Shown here piece after piece: positions 9,969 to 18,596 of a stretch of 24,979 bases of DNA. This DNA is from a virus. How positions within the stretch are numbered: position 1 is the first letter of the stretch; every line of letters begins with the position of its first letter. Location of the stretch: IMG/VR virus record IMGVR_UViG_3300034198_002891, positions 1 to 24,979 of that record. One strand, written 5' to 3'. A program made the position numbers and the translations under genes. Below the pieces are notes generated by a model. That model ran no database searches, was not told where the DNA came from, and saw only the letters and a program-made list of their open reading frames with translations.

Positions 9969-10822
9969 ATCCACGTCCCAAACGCTACAACACCATCTCT
10001 TGCAAACTGAGTAGGACGACTGATCCCACCCGCATATATAACTTTACCAGCTGCGGTTCTGCTAAACTCCTCATGAAGTTGCATATCAAATCGTGGCTTT
10101 ATACTGTCCAAACCATGAATTTCAGCAAACCGCTCTAATACGCCCTGCTCGAGTAATTTCTCTTGAAAGATGCTTGTATCTGTATCGGCTAAGAATTCGC
10201 TATAAGCGCCGTTATAGTAAGTCCATGTCACACCACCATCAGACACGCTTCCGCTTGTGTGCGTTGGCGCTGTAGCCCCTGTAGTGCCTCCAGCAGTCGT
10301 CTGATAGTAATTGCCGTTATAAATGCAGTAAGCATTAGCAGCAAAGCTTGTAGATACTGTCCAGGTTTTAGGAACAACGCATCTGTCTGAGATGTATTCA
10401 AAGATTAAAACTTGCCCTGATGTTTGTGGAGTTGGGCTAATTAGAAGCTCTGTGTTTGACATGCCTCTAATTTGAAAGCGTTGGTAAATAGTAGGCATCA
10501 ATCCAAAACCTTGGATCTGGGCATAATCTTGCTCAGATATTGGCCCTAAGACTCTCCACCTAGTACTTTGATTCCAGAATGTTTCGTATTGATAATAGGA
10601 AAAAGCCGCTGGTAGGGCATATGTAGCTTGGCCAGCTACCAGCGTTATAGAACTTGTGGCGTAACACTTAGGCCAGGGATACGCCTCAAATATGTCACGG
10701 TTGATACGTTGTGCTATGGCTAGTAACTGTTTTGTCGTAGTTTCTGAAGATGTCAGAATGTTTGACTCAACGGTGTAACCAGCCTCATTTGCTACATTTT
10801 GTATAACCGTGGCTATGCTCAT
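9965..10822 (-). CDS. Head-tail adaptor / tail tubular protein A-like, with inserted small domain
   Basis: A 285-residue protein. The N-terminal helix region (VIQNVANEAGYTV, then LLAIAQRINRDIFEAYPWP), the strand signature ITLVAGQATYALPAAF and EYISDRCVV, and the C-terminal helix around LLEQGVLERFAEIHGLD are arranged as in podovirus adaptor or tail tubular A proteins that dock under the portal. Residues 154-205 look inserted: WTVSTSFAANAYCIYNGNYY, then GGTTGATAPTHTSG and DGGVTWTYYN. This is a W...Y-x-x-G-x-x-Y...TAP...DGxVxW pattern that I associate with small carbohydrate-binding-like domains in phage neck proteins. Ends overlap both neighbours as ATGA. The adaptor assignment is by pattern; the carbohydrate-binding idea for the insert is inference. 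Confidence 0.72.
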   Translation of the reverse strand: MSIATVIQNVANEAGYTVESNILTSSETTTKQLLAIAQRINRDIFEAYPWPKCYATSSITLVAGQATYALPAAFSYYQYETFWNQSTRWRVLGPISEQDYAQIQGFGLMPTIYQRFQIRGMSNTELLISPTPQTSGQVLIFEYISDRCVVPKTWTVSTSFAANAYCIYNGNYYQTTAGGTTGATAPTHTSGSVSDGGVTWTYYNGAYSEFLADTDTSIFQEKLLEQGVLERFAEIHGLDSIKPRFDMQLHEEFSRTAAGKVIYAGGISRPTQFARDGVVAFGTWI

Positions 10823-11496
10823 ACTTTTCTTGGCCTACCCCTTGGTTTTGGTGAATCATCTAAATCAAGATCTTCCTCGGCCTCGATTGACTGGATCACC
10901 TCCTTTCGTGCTGTCCGAAGGTCTGTCCCTTCGTTAGCGCTTAGTCGTTGTAGTAACAGTTCCACCTTCTCTTCAAGCTTGGCAGTGCGAGCCTGTTCGT
11001 GCTCTAGCTTAGTTTTTAGCTTTACTACTTCATTCTGAGTTGAATTAGCAGCAGCTAACCACTCCTGAGCGAGCTTAACAAACTTGGATAATGTACCTAA
11101 CTTTCGCTTGGCTTCATCAGTTGCGTTAGCTACCTGCTCAACGGTTTTAAATCCTAAGTACTGCAACTCCCGCATGGCTGAGCCATTCATCATTGACCAT
11201 TCAGCAAGTGGAGTTCCTTCGGTAACAGGCTCAGAATTAGCCTTAAAACGTGCGTAGGCTTCGGGATATTCTTGAATATCTTGGGGCTCTATACGTCTAA
11301 CGGTCTCATCCATACCAGGCCATTGAATACTGATGGATGGTATTTCATCAAATATCGGACGGCCTTCTCTTAGAGACTTTTCTTCATTCTCGTTGTAAGC
11401 GTAAAAGAATTTGACATTAGCTCCGGCGAATCGTTTCTTTTGAACGACTACTCCGTTAGCTTGCTGTCTTATAGTTTCCCAGTCTATCTGTGGCAT
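10819..11496 (-). CDS. Conserved phage coiled-coil protein with AT-hook-like C-terminus
   Basis: A 225-residue protein. The N-terminal half (to about 110) has short beta segments and the motif EGTPLAEWSMM, followed by a helix-hairpin-like segment YLGFKTVEQVANATDEAKRK. This arrangement (GTPLxxW then LGxxTVEQLA) is familiar from conserved proteins near podovirus head-tail genes, whose function I do not know. Residues 125-190 form a coiled coil. The last ten residues contain RGRPRK (219-224), an AT-hook core, after an acidic stretch (EAEEDLDLDDS), which suggests contact with DNA. The start has AAGGA upstream and lies directly after a 10-bp-stem inverted repeat. Its stop overlaps the adaptor start as ATGA. 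A head-completion or DNA-end-binding role is inference only. Confidence 0.65.
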   Translation of the reverse strand: MPQIDWETIRQQANGVVVQKKRFAGANVKFFYAYNENEEKSLREGRPIFDEIPSISIQWPGMDETVRRIEPQDIQEYPEAYARFKANSEPVTEGTPLAEWSMMNGSAMRELQYLGFKTVEQVANATDEAKRKLGTLSKFVKLAQEWLAAANSTQNEVVKLKTKLEHEQARTAKLEEKVELLLQRLSANEGTDLRTARKEVIQSIEAEEDLDLDDSPKPRGRPRKV

Positions 11497-12909: not shown

Positions 12910-13866
12910 TTAAGCGTAAATAACACCCTGGAGAGCCGGAGCAGAGCAGCATAGGTTTCCTTCAACGATAATAACCGTGAAGAAAGCATCCTGATCAAAC
13001 GGGCGATCCATAGTTGGTGCTAGTGGCTTGAAGTCGCTTCCTCGAACTAAATCGAAAGTCCAATACTTAGTATTAAGCAATCGACATGAGTTAGTCTCAA
13101 GTACGCTAGAATTAAATCCACCATCGAACACGAAATCGCATCCGTCATAGCTAAGAACACGGAAACCAGCTACAGCCTTCTTTGTAGGAAGCTGAATACG
13201 CTGAATAGCCGTTAGTGAGCTATGAAGGAACTTCCATGCTGTACGATCCATAAGACCAAGATCCGGTGCCTCAGAACCACGGGTTAGGCGGCTGATAACA
13301 TCGGTGATAGTCTCCTGAACGTTTGCAGCAGTAAGCGTTACGTTGGTTGCATAGTTTCTAGCCCATGAGTTAGAAACACGGTCAATTCCACCGTAAGTAC
13401 CAGATGAAGGCGAAGTCGAAACTGCCTTCTTGATACCGTCAAACTCAAGTCCACCTGAACCAGTTCCGTCACCACGAAGTGATGTTGAAACCGTATTCTT
13501 TAGGCGCTCGATTGCAGCTTCCATCTTTGCTTCAGCTAGGTCGAGGAGCTGTGCATCTCCACGGTTAGCGCGGCGCTCACGTCCGCTCATCGCTACAGGC
13601 TCATAGCACTGCTTGATGTTGAAACGGAAAGCCGTTAGGTCATCGATTGAGCTTAAATCAAATGACTGATATCCCTGATAAAATCCGCCAACTGCCGTGT
13701 CATTATACATAACAGGCTTACGAAACTCACTTCCACCTTCAGTTTTCTTAATTCGCCCATTCTCGTCCAGAACGGAAGTAAGCGGATTGTGATGAAGCAC
13801 TAAATCCGCGATCTCCGATGACTGGTCGAAAAGGGTACTTACGATTGCCTCTTCTAAATTAGCCAT
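12910..13866 (-). CDS. Major capsid protein (probable HK97 fold)
   Basis: A 318-residue protein following the acidic scaffold gene. The N-terminus (TLFDQSSEIADLVLHHNPLT, then LDENGRIKKTEGGSEFRKPV) matches the N-arm and first strands of a podovirus capsid family whose members read 'xxSxxIADxxxxxNxLxxxLxxxGxxKxxxGGxxxxxP'. The body has a spine-helix-like region (LDLAEAKMEAAIERLKNTV), a glycine-rich loop (RGDGTGSGGLEFDGIKK) and the C-terminal segment PFDQDAFFTVIIVEGNLCCS. HK97 fold is inferred from layout and length. There is no cleavage-prone delta domain, consistent with a separate scaffold protein. Its ribosome binding site (AAGGGA) is part of an inverted repeat, so translation initiation is probably controlled. 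Normally the most abundant virion protein. Confidence 0.85.
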   Translation of the reverse strand: MANLEEAIVSTLFDQSSEIADLVLHHNPLTSVLDENGRIKKTEGGSEFRKPVMYNDTAVGGFYQGYQSFDLSSIDDLTAFRFNIKQCYEPVAMSGRERRANRGDAQLLDLAEAKMEAAIERLKNTVSTSLRGDGTGSGGLEFDGIKKAVSTSPSSGTYGGIDRVSNSWARNYATNVTLTAANVQETITDVISRLTRGSEAPDLGLMDRTAWKFLHSSLTAIQRIQLPTKKAVAGFRVLSYDGCDFVFDGGFNSSVLETNSCRLLNTKYWTFDLVRGSDFKPLAPTMDRPFDQDAFFTVIIVEGNLCCSAPALQGVIYA

Positions 13867-13867
13867 T

Positions 13868-13941
13868 GTTATCCCTTTTTAAAGTTTTGGGATAACCGAA
13901 TAGCTTATTCGCCGACAAATCGACGCCGCAGGTTATCCCTT
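13868..13941 (-). promoter_or_regulatory. Alternative RNA pairings controlling the capsid ribosome binding site
   Basis: On the minus-strand transcript, GGGAUAACC (13939-13931, inside the scaffold reading frame), GGUUAUCCC (13897-13889, just after the scaffold stop) and GGGAUAAC (13875-13868, overlapping the capsid ribosome binding site and ending just before its ATG) occur in that order. The middle element can pair with the first (9 bp) or with the third (8 bp), but not with both. Pairing with the third buries the AAGGGA that should recruit the ribosome. A ribosome at the scaffold stop (13905-13907) would cover part of the middle element. The repeats are seen directly; the switching is inference. 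Confidence 0.65.
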
Positions 13942-14930
13942 AAATTTTGAGCTTGTATCCTGGGAGTCCCACTACCAGCGGAGCCAGATATTGTTTTGGC
14001 AGCGGCCTTGGCCTTTTGAACCTTAGCTTGCTGCTGTTGTACCACCGGCCCGGCAGCCATTTTAGAATTAAGGCTGGAAAAGGTCGGGTTGCCATTCACC
14101 ACATAATTGTAGGCAGTTTCTAGCACTTGCTCAGGGGAGGAATACCGCCCTGTGGCATTAAGCGCCTGAACTACCGGAGCCATTTCAGTCTCTAATTGAG
14201 AGGCTGTTTCTGGATCTCTAAACAGTGGCTTGTTAGCTATCCATGAGTTTACCACCTGTTGATTATAGTATTCAAGATTCTTCTTGTCCTGAACCTGCTG
14301 TAAAGCGTTATATCGCTCCTCAGCGATTTTTTCGGCCTGTTGCCTTGTTAGGTATTCAGCCTGAGACGTTTGCGGCTGTTGTTGGCCTACAAGGTCATTG
14401 ACGCTTAACCCGTGAGCATCTAGCCAATCTAAAGCTGTGGCAACTGGGTTAGTTTCCATAGCCTTATCCCAAGCGATTGCCTTTTTGGTAACGTCAGTTA
14501 ACGAAATGCCGTCTCTAGCGTAGTAATCCTCGTACTGCTTAATTGTTTCGTATAATCCAGCGGTTTGTTTTTTTAGTTGCTCTACCTCTTGCATTTTGCG
14601 ACCATAATCCGAGCGAGTCTCGTAGGCGCGTCTATTTAGATAGGATTGAAGAATATGAGCATTAGCTGGAGTAGGATTAAGGTACGCTTCTTTTTCCACC
14701 GCATTCATATCAGCCGGTGGTACAAGTTGAGGCTTTTCGATCTCGGTAACTGGTTCCGTCGCCGGAGCTTCTTCTGTTACTTCCTGTTCAGTTGTCTCTG
14801 TTGGCTCAGTATCATCTTCATGTTTAGAACCATCATTCAACTGCTGGCTTAATTTTTCTCGAATAGACAACTCAGAGATCGACCGGTTTGGCTTAACTTC
14901 AGTATCTTCAGTCTCGTATTTATCTTCCAT
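13905..14930 (-). CDS. Capsid scaffolding protein
   Basis: I use the ATG at 14930 (341 aa), which has AGGU about 7 nt upstream. A TTG five codons earlier (14945) is open but weak. The first 80 residues are strongly acidic and Thr-rich (DGSKHEDDTEPTETTEQEVT and following). The centre is helical with coiled-coil Gln/Glu runs (around YGRKMQEVEQLKKQTAGLYE and RQQAEKIAEERYNALQQVQD). The C-terminus is basic (VQKAKAAAKT... then NLRDNLRRRFVGE). An acidic helical body with a short basic coat-binding tail, coded directly before the capsid gene, is the hallmark of podovirus scaffold proteins. The start overlaps the upstream 107-aa gene by 11 nt. The last codons double as one arm of the capsid-start RNA structure. 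Confidence 0.8.
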   Translation of the reverse strand: MEDKYETEDTEVKPNRSISELSIREKLSQQLNDGSKHEDDTEPTETTEQEVTEEAPATEPVTEIEKPQLVPPADMNAVEKEAYLNPTPANAHILQSYLNRRAYETRSDYGRKMQEVEQLKKQTAGLYETIKQYEDYYARDGISLTDVTKKAIAWDKAMETNPVATALDWLDAHGLSVNDLVGQQQPQTSQAEYLTRQQAEKIAEERYNALQQVQDKKNLEYYNQQVVNSWIANKPLFRDPETASQLETEMAPVVQALNATGRYSSPEQVLETAYNYVVNGNPTFSSLNSKMAAGPVVQQQQAKVQKAKAAAKTISGSAGSGTPRIQAQNLRDNLRRRFVGE

Positions 14931-15243: not shown

Positions 15244-16223
15244 AAGTCTATTTTAGCTAACCACATTAAAGCTTTTAATCGTTTTATACGGTTATTTCGT
15301 TTGCGGGTAAACTCTTCCGCTTTTCGTTCAGCATCTTGTAATTGTAAAAACGCTTGAAGCTCCATTTGTCTTGCCGCTTCTACAGCTACAGCATGACGTG
15401 TCATAACTTCTTCTTGAAGTTGTTTTATAGCATTGATTGCTTGTTTTTGTGCTTCAATTCTATCGTTTATTTGTGATTCTAATTGAGCCGCCTTTAGTGA
15501 CGCCTCTTCCATTTTAAGCTTAATTTCAGCTCGACGAAGTGCTTTTTGTTCTTCTATTTCCGCAAGTACTGCTGCTACAACTTCGGGGGAATCTACTGGA
15601 ACTGGCGGAGCTGTGATTGCGTCTACTTCTTCTACAGTTTCTGCACCATAGATAGCGTTATAAATAAGCTTTTTCCAATTTCGTAATTTTCTAACTTTTT
15701 GTTCGACTTGCGGTCGTTTTTGCCTAGCTTTGAGTAGCTGTGCGGCAATTTCTTCCTCTTCTTTGGATTCTGACCGTTTGCGCCTATATCTGTTGAGAAT
15801 GTCAGATGTATCAACAAAGTTAGAAATTTGAGCAATAGTTGGAAGATAAATTTGAGTAGTAGAGTTAAGCCTGTTAAGTGTTATTGTTTGAGGGCCAGCA
15901 GCTTGAACAACGGTAGGAAGATAAATTTGAGTAGTGGATGCAATTCTATCTAAAGTAACAGTTTGAGTTCCACCAGCTTGAACTACCGCAGGAAGATAAA
16001 TGCTTGTAGTAGATGCAATCTGATTAAGAGAGATTAACTTTGAAGCTTGTCTGCTAACTGTTGGATTATAAACAGTAGTAGTAGATGTAAGTTGATTAAG
16101 TACAATGGTTTGTGGGCTGCCGGTAGCCGCACTAATTGGAATACTAGGATACTGTTCGCCTACGGTTTGAATGTTACCGTATTTAAAACCAGTAAGATTT
16201 GCGTTACTGGTTAATCCACTCAC
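15240..16223 (-). CDS. Virion protein: four 25-aa beta repeats fused to a long coiled coil
   Basis: A 327-residue protein starting at a GTG that overlaps the upstream stop as GTGA. Residues about 33-135 contain four repeats of roughly 25 residues built around QTxxLxxIxSTTxIYLPTVV. Each has a hydrophobic strand, a Ser-Thr-Thr turn and an aromatic-Pro strand. Such 'STTxxYxPTV' repeats occur in phage structural proteins and predict a narrow beta-helix or fibre. The rest (about 140-327) is charged and helical: a basic segment (ILNRYRRKRSESKEEEE), a Pro/Val/Thr linker (TAPPVPVDSPEVV), then a long Glu/Lys/Ala coiled coil and a basic end (KRNNRIKRLKALMWLAKIDL). The design suggests a fibre with a helical anchor. 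Family and exact location on the virion are not known. Confidence 0.65.
   Translation of the reverse strand: MSGLTSNANLTGFKYGNIQTVGEQYPSIPISAATGSPQTIVLNQLTSTTTVYNPTVSRQASKLISLNQIASTTSIYLPAVVQAGGTQTVTLDRIASTTQIYLPTVVQAAGPQTITLNRLNSTTQIYLPTIAQISNFVDTSDILNRYRRKRSESKEEEEIAAQLLKARQKRPQVEQKVRKLRNWKKLIYNAIYGAETVEEVDAITAPPVPVDSPEVVAAVLAEIEEQKALRRAEIKLKMEEASLKAAQLESQINDRIEAQKQAINAIKQLQEEVMTRHAVAVEAARQMELQAFLQLQDAERKAEEFTRKRNNRIKRLKALMWLAKIDL
15841..16112 (-). repeat. Four tandem ~75-bp coding repeats
   Basis: Units beginning ggaagataaa (plus strand) start at 15841, 15916 and 15991, exactly 75 bases apart. A diverged fourth copy (ggattataaac) starts near 16063. They encode the 25-residue QTxxLxxIxSTTxIYLPTV repeats of the 327-aa protein. 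The spacing is a multiple of three and the copies have diverged most in the N-terminal unit, so this is an old protein repeat, not a spacer array. Confidence 0.85.
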
Positions 16224-17053
16224 GACAATACGCTCATATCAAAAATACATGAAGTAGTAGCTGCGGAAGCTCCAAAAACCGATAGAGTTGCTAATGTTGT
16301 TACCGTTCCAGAAGTTGCAGTTGCAGCAACTTGATTAGGTATTTTAAGTCCATATCCAGTAAAATAATCTGCTGTTAGTGCATTAGCGAAACAATTTACC
16401 GAAGGTTCAATTTCCTCTGCCAGCCATACCGTAGCAGCTCCAGTTGCGGATGCGGTACTTATTGCTACATCACTAACATCGCGAACTGCCCAATCCCCTT
16501 GTTCTAGTGGCAGAAAAAATGTTGAGCCGTTTGCTGTAGTAGCACTAGGAAATGTAAAAGTTCGTGCTCCTGTAACGCTACTTCCAGTTTGATTAACATA
16601 ATTAAAAGTTAATATAGCGGCTGTTGTTGTTAGCGCTGTAGTTACTTGAATTATCGGCCATAACGCTTGCGCCTTTCCTGAAACTCCAAATTCACTTCTT
16701 AATACAGGGAAGCTTGCTGCATCATGAGTAAATTGGCTCCCTGTTGCAGTTAAAGTTACAGTGCCAACCTTATAAAGTCTTAGAAAAATTAAGCCTCTTG
16801 CATTTAAGGTTAATCCTGTTAATGACGCTAAATTGATTAAATCTGATGTAATTCCCGAAGGAATAGGAAATTCTGTTATTGTAGATGGAAGAGTAGAGCC
16901 TATTGCGTTTCCACCTAGTGACAATGTAAAAAATCCACTAGCAGCAGCAGCAGCAGTCACGGATAAAAATGTAGCCCCAGCCCCCATTCTACTGGCATAC
17001 TTACCTCTAGCTTGCTGTTTAAATATATCATCGATTGTGCTGATATTAGGCAT
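16220..17053 (-). CDS. Virion beta-protein, paralogue 3 of a tandem trio
   Basis: A 277-residue Thr/Ala/Ser-rich protein. A short N-terminal helix (IDDIFKQQARGKYASRMGAG) precedes a hydrophobic Ala-rich stretch and then beta domains. It shares with the next two upstream genes a 'VGTxxLxxxGxxFTxD' strand, a 'NYVNQTGSSVTG' loop (YTNQDGSS and YTDQDGTT in the others) and a 'GDWAVRDVSDVAIST' segment. It is the most diverged of the three and has an additional C-terminal beta stretch (TSGTVTTLATLSVFG). No catalytic motif is visible. It starts on the stop codon of its paralogue (TAATG). Position between portal and scaffold and composition point to a head-surface or fibre protein (inference). Confidence 0.6.
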   Translation of the reverse strand: MPNISTIDDIFKQQARGKYASRMGAGATFLSVTAAAAASGFFTLSLGGNAIGSTLPSTITEFPIPSGITSDLINLASLTGLTLNARGLIFLRLYKVGTVTLTATGSQFTHDAASFPVLRSEFGVSGKAQALWPIIQVTTALTTTAAILTFNYVNQTGSSVTGARTFTFPSATTANGSTFFLPLEQGDWAVRDVSDVAISTASATGAATVWLAEEIEPSVNCFANALTADYFTGYGLKIPNQVAATATSGTVTTLATLSVFGASAATTSCIFDMSVLS

Positions 17054-17838
17054 TATGTAGTCTCCGGGGTTAGACTATAACCATAAAAAAACTCTGTTGA
17101 TGCTGTTGCGCCAAATCGATATGCGCCAATATATTCGTTTGGTTCAATTAAATAAGGAACCAATGGTGCGCTCATGCAATTTAATACAGTAGCAAGTGGC
17201 GAAACTGGCTGCTGACTAATCATTAAAGGAAGCACTCCATAAACTTTAATAGTTCCAGCAGTCCCGGTAGAAATGCTTATATTTGTTACGTCTCTCATTC
17301 CAGTATCTCCACTAGCTAAATGTGGAGTAACATAAAATCCTGTATTGATAGCGGGACTTGTTGGAAGAGTTAAACTAGCGGTATTGCCAGTAGTTCCATC
17401 TTGATCGGTATAGGTAATAGTAAGAGTTGGCGTAGTACTGGTAACTGCAACTGTAGCAACGGCAAATACGAGACTTGCAGCCGTTGTAATAGATGCTCCT
17501 CGCACTGTTTTAGTTGGCATAGGAACGCCATCTGTAAATGTATTTGAAGAAACTGCTAATGAACCTAATTCATATTCAAGTCCAAAAAACATCCCAGTTG
17601 CGGCCGCTCCGTTAAATCCCCAAACATTTGTTGCTATAAATCCGGATATTCCAGATCCGTTAGACGATGGCATTTGTATACGTTGAGGAGATCTAGTAAT
17701 AGAAACGCTTCCTGAATTTGTGGTAGCAGCTGTAATTGCGGCCGATCTAAAATAATACATTCTTTGCATCATGCCATTAGTGGCAGTTGCAGCTATCGCG
17801 GCATCAAGAGTTGGGGCTGCTGTTGTAAAATTAGCCAT
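17053..17838 (-). CDS. Virion beta-protein, paralogue 2 of a tandem trio
   Basis: A 261-residue protein with an N-terminal helix (TLDAAIAATATNGMMQRMYY) and two beta-rich regions. Landmarks shared with its neighbours are LGSLAVSSNTFTDGVPMPTK, LTITYTDQDGTTGNTASLTL, the GF..P block, SGDTGMRDVTNISISTGTAG and a YGVLPLM strand. The 'TYTxQDG' segment resembles immunoglobulin-like or sandwich loops seen in phage surface proteins. The C-terminus ends in an aromatic strand (TEFFYGYSLTPETT) that also resembles the paralogue's YFTGYGLKIP. It overlaps both neighbours by one base (TAATG). Function unknown; a capsid-decorating or fibre role is inferred from composition, duplication and place. Confidence 0.6.
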   Translation of the reverse strand: MANFTTAAPTLDAAIAATATNGMMQRMYYFRSAAITAATTNSGSVSITRSPQRIQMPSSNGSGISGFIATNVWGFNGAAATGMFFGLEYELGSLAVSSNTFTDGVPMPTKTVRGASITTAASLVFAVATVAVTSTTPTLTITYTDQDGTTGNTASLTLPTSPAINTGFYVTPHLASGDTGMRDVTNISISTGTAGTIKVYGVLPLMISQQPVSPLATVLNCMSAPLVPYLIEPNEYIGAYRFGATASTEFFYGYSLTPETT

Positions 17839-18596
17839 TATGCTTGCTCTCCAACAAAGCTTAAAGTTCCCTTCAATCCTCTAACTGTTCCAGGAGTGCT
17901 TAACAAATAAATGCTATCCCCAGCGCTCAGTAATGGAGGAGTTGGAAATTCAGTGAGAAAGTTTAAATTTGAAACTGTGCCAATTATTTGATGCGAACTA
18001 TTAAACATTCCGAGTGGAATAACACCCCAAAATTTTAACGTACACGTTCCAGTTCCTGATGCCCTTGTTGCTGTAGTTATATCTCTTGCTCCGTAATCAT
18101 TACCGTTCAGCGGAATAAATCCAGCAGAATATGCGGCTGATGTTGTAGTAATTGCTGTCGATGGAGTTGTTGCTGAACTTCCATCTTGATTAGTATATGT
18201 AATTGTAATATTTGCAGTGCCAGATCCAACAGTAGTCATTTCAACTAAAATAGGGGAATTTATTTGCCTTGATGAATTTCCTTCTGTCACGGTTGGCATA
18301 GCAGCCCCATCTGTAAAGGAAGTTCCAACCACTAAAGTCCCCATATCTATGAGCTTTGCTAAAATACATACTCCAGTTTGAATTGAGTTATATAAACTTG
18401 CATTAGTAAGTCGAAACCCAGTTACACCTGAGGGCATAGTTTCTACTGTGTAGATTGGAGGAGTTTTAGCAAAAATAAGAGTATTTCCAACTACCGCAGC
18501 AGTAGCTGTAGCAATTTCTGCACCCCAATGACGTTGTACCTCATATCCACTTGTAGCTCTATTTAAATAGTCATTAAAACTTGCAAGTGCGGCCAT
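17838..18596 (-). CDS. Virion beta-protein, paralogue 1 of a tandem trio
   Basis: A 252-residue protein and the first of the three paralogues to be transcribed. An N-terminal helix (ASFNDYLNRATSGYEVQRHW) is followed by beta regions with MGTLVVGTSFTDGAAMPTVT, NITITYTNQDGSSATTPSTA, the AGFIPL block, NDYGARDITTATRASGTGTC and FWGVIPLGMF. These align in order with landmarks in the next two genes. The end (SAGDSIYLLSTPGTVRGLKG) differs from the others. There is no signal peptide or enzyme motif. It lies one base after the 84-aa gene and its stop is the start of paralogue 2 (TAATG). It is presumably structural. Confidence 0.6.
   Translation of the reverse strand: MAALASFNDYLNRATSGYEVQRHWGAEIATATAAVVGNTLIFAKTPPIYTVETMPSGVTGFRLTNASLYNSIQTGVCILAKLIDMGTLVVGTSFTDGAAMPTVTEGNSSRQINSPILVEMTTVGSGTANITITYTNQDGSSATTPSTAITTTSAAYSAGFIPLNGNDYGARDITTATRASGTGTCTLKFWGVIPLGMFNSSHQIIGTVSNLNFLTEFPTPPLLSAGDSIYLLSTPGTVRGLKGTLSFVGEQA

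Follow-up and report, generated by a model that had tools for sequence, protein, structure and literature searches.

A candidate termination-gated RNA switch, backed by covariation in two competing helices, at a phage scaffold/capsid gene junction

The ermBL-ermB leader forms two hairpins with one common strand, and one of these hairpins hides the start (PMC11264731). In phage MS2, a pairing with coding sequence is gated by the ribosome (PMC11339067). Coupling by RNA unfolding has been reviewed for f1 VII/IX, MS2 coat-lysis and E. coli rpmI-rplT (PMC12548453), and coupling without a ribosome binding site has been proposed for SPP1 late genes (PMC6316719). Here, the junction between a putative scaffolding protein gene and the major capsid protein gene was analyzed in a viral DNA of 24,979 nt. 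This whole stretch is called the window, and all positions refer to it. As in coupling by unfolding, the capsid Shine-Dalgarno sequence and start are sequestered in a conserved structure, and the upstream gene is co-directional and ends near that structure. As in erm-type systems, two exclusive hairpins share a strand, and the strand that forms the alternative hairpin lies inside the upstream frame. The short leader ORF with a programmed arrest that belongs to the erm type is not found here; the upstream ORF encodes a conserved protein of 341 aa. The literature searched, which lay mostly outside the subscription journals, held no earlier description of an alternative-pairing switch at a scaffold/capsid junction.

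Both genes are located on the minus strand. The putative scaffolding protein gene is an ORF at 13905..14930 (341 aa from ATG). It is followed after 38 nt by the major capsid protein gene at 12910..13866 (phrog_9953 major head protein, E 9e-67), with its ATG at 13866-13864. An earlier note on this DNA had placed three complementary strands, in a defined order, within 13868-13941. They were seen on the minus strand in that order, and the span was correct to within 2 nt. The 5' arm GGGAUAACC (GGGATAACC as DNA; 13939-13931) is the putative anti-sequestering strand and lies in the scaffold codons for R-D-N-L, which read AGG-GAT-AAC-CTG in the window. The scaffold stop UAA (TAA; 13907-13905) is located 23 nt past the end of the 10-nt arm segment. 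The shared middle strand GGUUAUCCC (GGTTATCCC as DNA; 13897-13889) comes after this stop, and the 3' arm GGGAUAAC (GGGATAAC as DNA; 13875-13868) lies over the capsid Shine-Dalgarno region. When both strands of the 24,979-nt window were searched for exact GGGATAAC sites, only these three junction copies were found.

The upstream 341-aa ORF gave no Pfam or PHROG match. Its AlphaFold2 model (mean pLDDT 72, pTM 0.31) was all-helical, with a disordered acidic N-terminus and an isolated basic C-terminal helix of residues 330-339. The best Foldseek matches were weak and included two phage proteins that carry the name Scaffolding protein (E about 0.01); the model had no fold match in the PDB. The ORF encodes a conserved protein and is positioned directly before the capsid gene. 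Based on the gene order, the acidic disordered N-terminus, the all-helical model and the weak fold matches, the gene is likely a scaffold. In the model, the codons of the 5' arm (13929-13940, minus strand) encode the start of the C-terminal helix, so that a single stretch would serve both protein and RNA.

Other features of the window were also recorded. A 225-aa ORF (10819-11496) is preceded by an imperfect inverted repeat of 16 bp, AGTTAAAGGTTATATA / TATGTAACCTTTAATT, in the 130 nt upstream of 11496 on the minus strand. Three consecutive ORFs of 277, 261 and 252 aa at 16220-18596 appeared similar in size and composition by eye, which may point to paralogous copies of a virion protein. At 191-607, the last ORF of a cluster matches DUF5675 (Pfam PF18925, E 2e-33).

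Related junctions, from uncultured aquatic phages, were taken from IMG/VR loci found by capsid searches and by matches to the three-arm DNA pattern. This resulted in 232 usable junctions, 90 of them distinct, with capsids at least 81% identical. In 232 of 232, the order of the three strands and their placement with respect to the stop and start codons were kept. The 5' arm consisted of scaffold codons for R-D-N-L or close variants in every junction, and the distance from the end of its segment to the stop was 23 nt in 75 of the 90 distinct junctions, 26 nt in 13 and 20 nt in 2. In all junctions the core of the middle strand begins 6-19 nt after the scaffold stop, and 4 nt usually separate the end of the 3' arm from the AUG. 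Loops and spacers were variable in length and sequence, and conservation was concentrated in the pairing strands. Where the spacer between stop and middle strand is long, a small hairpin is found at or just after the scaffold stop (e.g. L292, L102, L084). This hairpin was present in 33 of 41 distinct junctions with a long spacer, compared to 2 of 49 with a short one.

The arms were aligned gap-free, giving 61 distinct arm sets; for L110 and L111, the arm registers were set by hand before counting. The pairing of the 5' arm with the middle strand is referred to as the open helix, and that of the middle strand with the 3' arm as the closed helix. In the open helix, 97.6% of cells were standard pairs (24-55% in slid registers) and 17 cells were changed in both partners, against a shuffle mean of 5.3, with none of 500 shuffles as high. 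The closed helix had 96.5% standard pairs (33-63% in slid registers) and 28 double-changed cells, against 11.9 in shuffles and again none of 500 as high; two of its five measures, pairs and pair types, were not significant (114/500 and 500/500). The cells are not independent, and the changes were therefore mapped on a tree of capsid DNA. On the tree, nine branches altered both partners of the open helix, where weighting by branch length predicted 0.88 (none of 3000 simulations as high), and five branches altered both partners of the closed helix, where 1.19 were expected (P 0.004). Slid controls on the tree were non-significant except for one closed-helix register (P 0.006), which came from one column pair. 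The tree evidence is thus strongest for the open helix. This result is useful, because the open helix is the one that a sceptic would doubt.

When the pair states were reconstructed, the open helix showed nine double changes from one Watson-Crick pair to another. Of these, four were independent C-G to U-A swaps (L147, L098/L099, the L126 group and L294) at the pair nearest the 3' end of the 5' arm, a pair that is unique to the open helix and uncounted in the closed one. In the closed helix, eight double changes were found over the eight counted pairs, and four of these swaps affected the terminal pair, which is effectively unique to the closed helix and at which the 5' arm was unchanged. Part of the covariation of the two helices thus lies in different columns, which is what the formation of both would lead one to expect. 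The earlier note had proposed mutually exclusive pairings that share the middle strand, one of them occluding the capsid start, and had named in advance the lack of compensatory change in relatives as a reason to give this up. The relatives do carry compensatory changes, in both helices. Evolution has retained both foldings by matched mutations, and the two alternative RNA pairings are very probably real.

The R-D-N-L peptide is near-invariant across 34 scaffold homologues, and peptide conservation alone could therefore preserve the 5' arm. Codon choice was considered for this reason. The arginine codon of the arm was CGG in 91 of 101 cases, compared to about a quarter at the next three arginine positions. 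The asparagine codon was AAC in 101 of 118 cases and the leucine codon CTN in 109 of 118, while the preceding leucine position prefers TTA. Where the arm leucine is TTR, the middle strand carries A and not G opposite in eight of nine cases by hand count; the exception, L293, retains a G-U pair. These codon choices argue for synonymous sites in the 5' arm being held beyond conservation of the peptide.

The RNA folding that had been suggested as a check was carried out. The 101-nt junction gave -26.8 kcal/mol, compared to -17.5 +/- 3.1 for shuffles (z -2.95), and one of 200 shuffles was as good as the native sequence. The minimum-energy fold of the window junction was the closed pairing, extended by a helix that the earlier note had missed, in which GCUAUU (13904-13899) pairs with AAUGGC (13867-13862) across the capsid AUG. 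With this extension the AUG itself would be buried in this window; the extension is confined to the window and its near relatives. The gene starts were also scanned for a middle strand that could pair with the start region as well as with an upstream arm. The capsid junction scored 8.0, against at most 6.5 for the other 24 gene starts tested in the window and at most 7.0 for 200 shuffles; of the 25, only the capsid start lay above the shuffle maximum. An intrinsic terminator or transcription attenuator was rejected as a reading of the stems: there is no U run, AAAACUUUAAAAA follows the middle strand, and the capsid start follows the closed stem. Rfam gave no match over the window, and none at E up to 1 in 13780-14000.

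The energies of the two states were compared by keeping the 3' arm single-stranded for the open state and the 5' arm for the closed state. The median difference was 0.7 kcal/mol, and the states were within 3 kcal/mol in 55 of 90 junctions. This near balance of the predicted energies, like the synonymous constraint, is consistent with two exclusive pairings. In predicted ensembles with no ribosome, the closed helix was dominant in 78 of 90 junctions, and the median Shine-Dalgarno accessibility in the closed state was 0.02. Population of the open state would therefore need kinetics or ribosomes. Ribosomes were represented by masking an approximate footprint of about -14 to +13. When the 5' arm was masked in this way, the closed-helix probability was 1.0 in the median and 0.95 in the mean. 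A mask at the stop raised the mean AUG accessibility from 0.32 to 0.61 and the open-helix probability from 0.15 to 0.22, with Shine-Dalgarno accessibility almost unchanged and a mean probability of 0.61 retained by the closed helix. Hence, in the model, termination alone does not give full opening. The predicted masking figures only show that the geometry is workable.

Since both foldings are kept by matched mutations, how much capsid is made probably depends on whether ribosomes complete the scaffold gene. We favor, with some reserve, a reading in which the junction RNA would be a two-state, protein-free translational switch gated by termination, where the capsid start opens once the scaffold is completed. 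The middle strand would, in the closed state, pair with the 3' arm and hide the capsid Shine-Dalgarno sequence, in the window also the AUG. In the open state, it would pair with the 5' arm in the R-D-N-L codons and leave the capsid start free. While a ribosome covers the 5' arm, only the closed pairing would be possible. Once it reaches the stop, the 5' arm would be just uncovered behind it and its leading edge would press on the middle strand, which by geometry starts within or just beyond that edge. Termination would then peel the closed stem from its AUG-proximal end, the 5' arm would capture the middle strand, and the open helix would hold this state until the next ribosome resets it. Each completed scaffold chain would thereby give capsid initiation a chance. 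That the RNA alternatives control capsid initiation appears quite probable. A choice of state by scaffold translation would make geometric sense and, given control, a positive sign of the coupling seems fairly likely.

The opposite sign would amount to translational attenuation: ribosomes crowded at the scaffold end would sit on the 5' arm and leave the closed pairing as the only option, with abundant scaffold translation repressing the capsid, while under sparse or stalled translation the 5' arm would capture the middle strand and open it. Masking of the arm alone, with its mean closed-helix probability of 0.95, fits this order of events, as does the logic of ermB with its two hairpins and one common strand (PMC11264731). 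The 5' arm is also transcribed first, from which untranslated RNA would be expected to fold open first. However, a ribosome covers the arm only during its passage over roughly the last dozen codons, and at the stop it goes on to disturb the closed stem. Repression by scaffold translation is also less intuitive given that more capsid than scaffold is required, and no stall signal was noticed, short of a systematic search. We regard this sign, the main rival, as rather unlikely. A simpler arrangement would have the closed hairpin regulate by itself, as plain coupling by unfolding, the common form of such hairpins (PMC12548453), with the 5' arm complementarity a by-product of the conserved RDNL peptide and of selection on the middle strand for pairing with the 3' arm. 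The near-invariance of the peptide in the 34 homologues is in line with such a by-product. The by-product does not account for the synonymous constraint in the arm, the A opposite TTR leucines in eight of nine cases or the C-G to U-A swaps on four independent branches at a pair unique to the open helix, and the tree test was stronger for the open than for the closed helix. This arrangement is improbable.

Short motifs of 8-9 bp in inverted and direct copies between genes can also be protein sites on DNA, and the repeats might then be an operator, a promoter or a recombination signal with no role as RNA structure. DNA sites would lack strand asymmetry, however, and the non-Watson-Crick cells of the open helix on the mRNA strand were 43 G-U against 5 C-A/A-C. 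In the closed helix they were 37 against 16, the latter nearly all at the terminal pair, and no exact copy of the motif was found elsewhere in the window. We consider DNA-level sites very unlikely. The same low standing is given to an RNA-binding protein that would bind one of the folds, for example the scaffold itself through its basic C-terminal helix. The P22 scaffolding protein is autoregulated post-transcriptionally, and the modeled scaffold ends in the basic helix RDNLRRR; yet here the pairing strands are conserved and loops and spacers vary, unlike in a typical protein-binding hairpin. The termination-gated switch is the reading that we prefer.

The distribution of the element was analyzed in more distant capsid relatives with 26-37% identity, comprising Mx8, Bradyrhizobium phage ppBjS10J-1, BUCT555, Ruegeria 45A6, Microcystis Mwe-JY13 and 160 IMG/VR loci. 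By eye and by scan, the three-arm layout was absent from this set, and the relatives L313-L472 have ordinary Shine-Dalgarno sites. Thus, the gene pair has no general need of the switch. The scans made, including one with a hybrid query for intermediates, gave no capsid relatives between 37% and 81% identity, and with this gap in the sample the device appears to have arisen within a single clade. In an IMG/VR-wide search with the three-arm DNA pattern, capsid junctions predominated. The 68 other matches were about the number expected by chance and hence give no evidence for the device at other genes; besides L256, a truncated capsid locus, only L172 among them has an ATG-started ORF directly past the 3' arm. 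A search for prophage relatives in bacterial genomes found none, and no host was identified by that route.

Procapsid formation requires a workable ratio of scaffold to capsid protein. To our knowledge, the setting of this ratio at the level of translation is poorly described in dsDNA phages, and it is uncommon for both states of a bistable mRNA to be supported directly by evolution. At this junction, both competing pairings are backed by compensatory evolution over about 90 distinct natural sequences, and one of the RNA states reuses the codons of a conserved protein helix. If the proposal is true, it would be a protein-free device that coordinates two partners of procapsid assembly, apparently undescribed for this gene pair. 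We judge the odds to be even that, in a clade of dsDNA phages, capsid synthesis is linked to the completion of each scaffold chain, with the codons of the C-terminal helix as the anti-sequestering strand. Among the natural variants, compensated mutants for use in reporters are already at hand, and the element itself could be of use as a compact expression part gated by termination.

Mechanically, the proposed switch resembles ermB translational attenuation and MS2-type coupling, with a structural gene as the upstream frame. As in ermB, the position of the ribosome on the upstream frame would select between hairpins that share a strand. In contrast to the short, drug-sensing ermB leader with its programmed arrest, the upstream frame is a structural gene of 341 aa whose conserved C-terminal codons contain the arm, with no sign of a drug or an arrest peptide. 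As in MS2, coding sequence of a phage structural gene pairs to control the start of the next gene, with ribosome gating proposed here. In MS2, it is the coding strand that shuts the downstream site, whereas the coding arm of this junction would free the site by removing the sequestering strand, which is located past the stop codon. The sequestered downstream ribosome binding site, thought to be opened by upstream translation, is shared with unfolding-type coupling. That type has a single inhibitory structure according to the review, whereas the junction adds a covarying helix that competes for the inhibitory strand. The SPP1 case likewise concerns virion genes of a dsDNA phage, where termination-coupled initiation is proposed to set protein ratios. 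It uses adjacent or overlapping stop and start codons and is not described for scaffold and capsid, whereas this junction would use an RNA switch.
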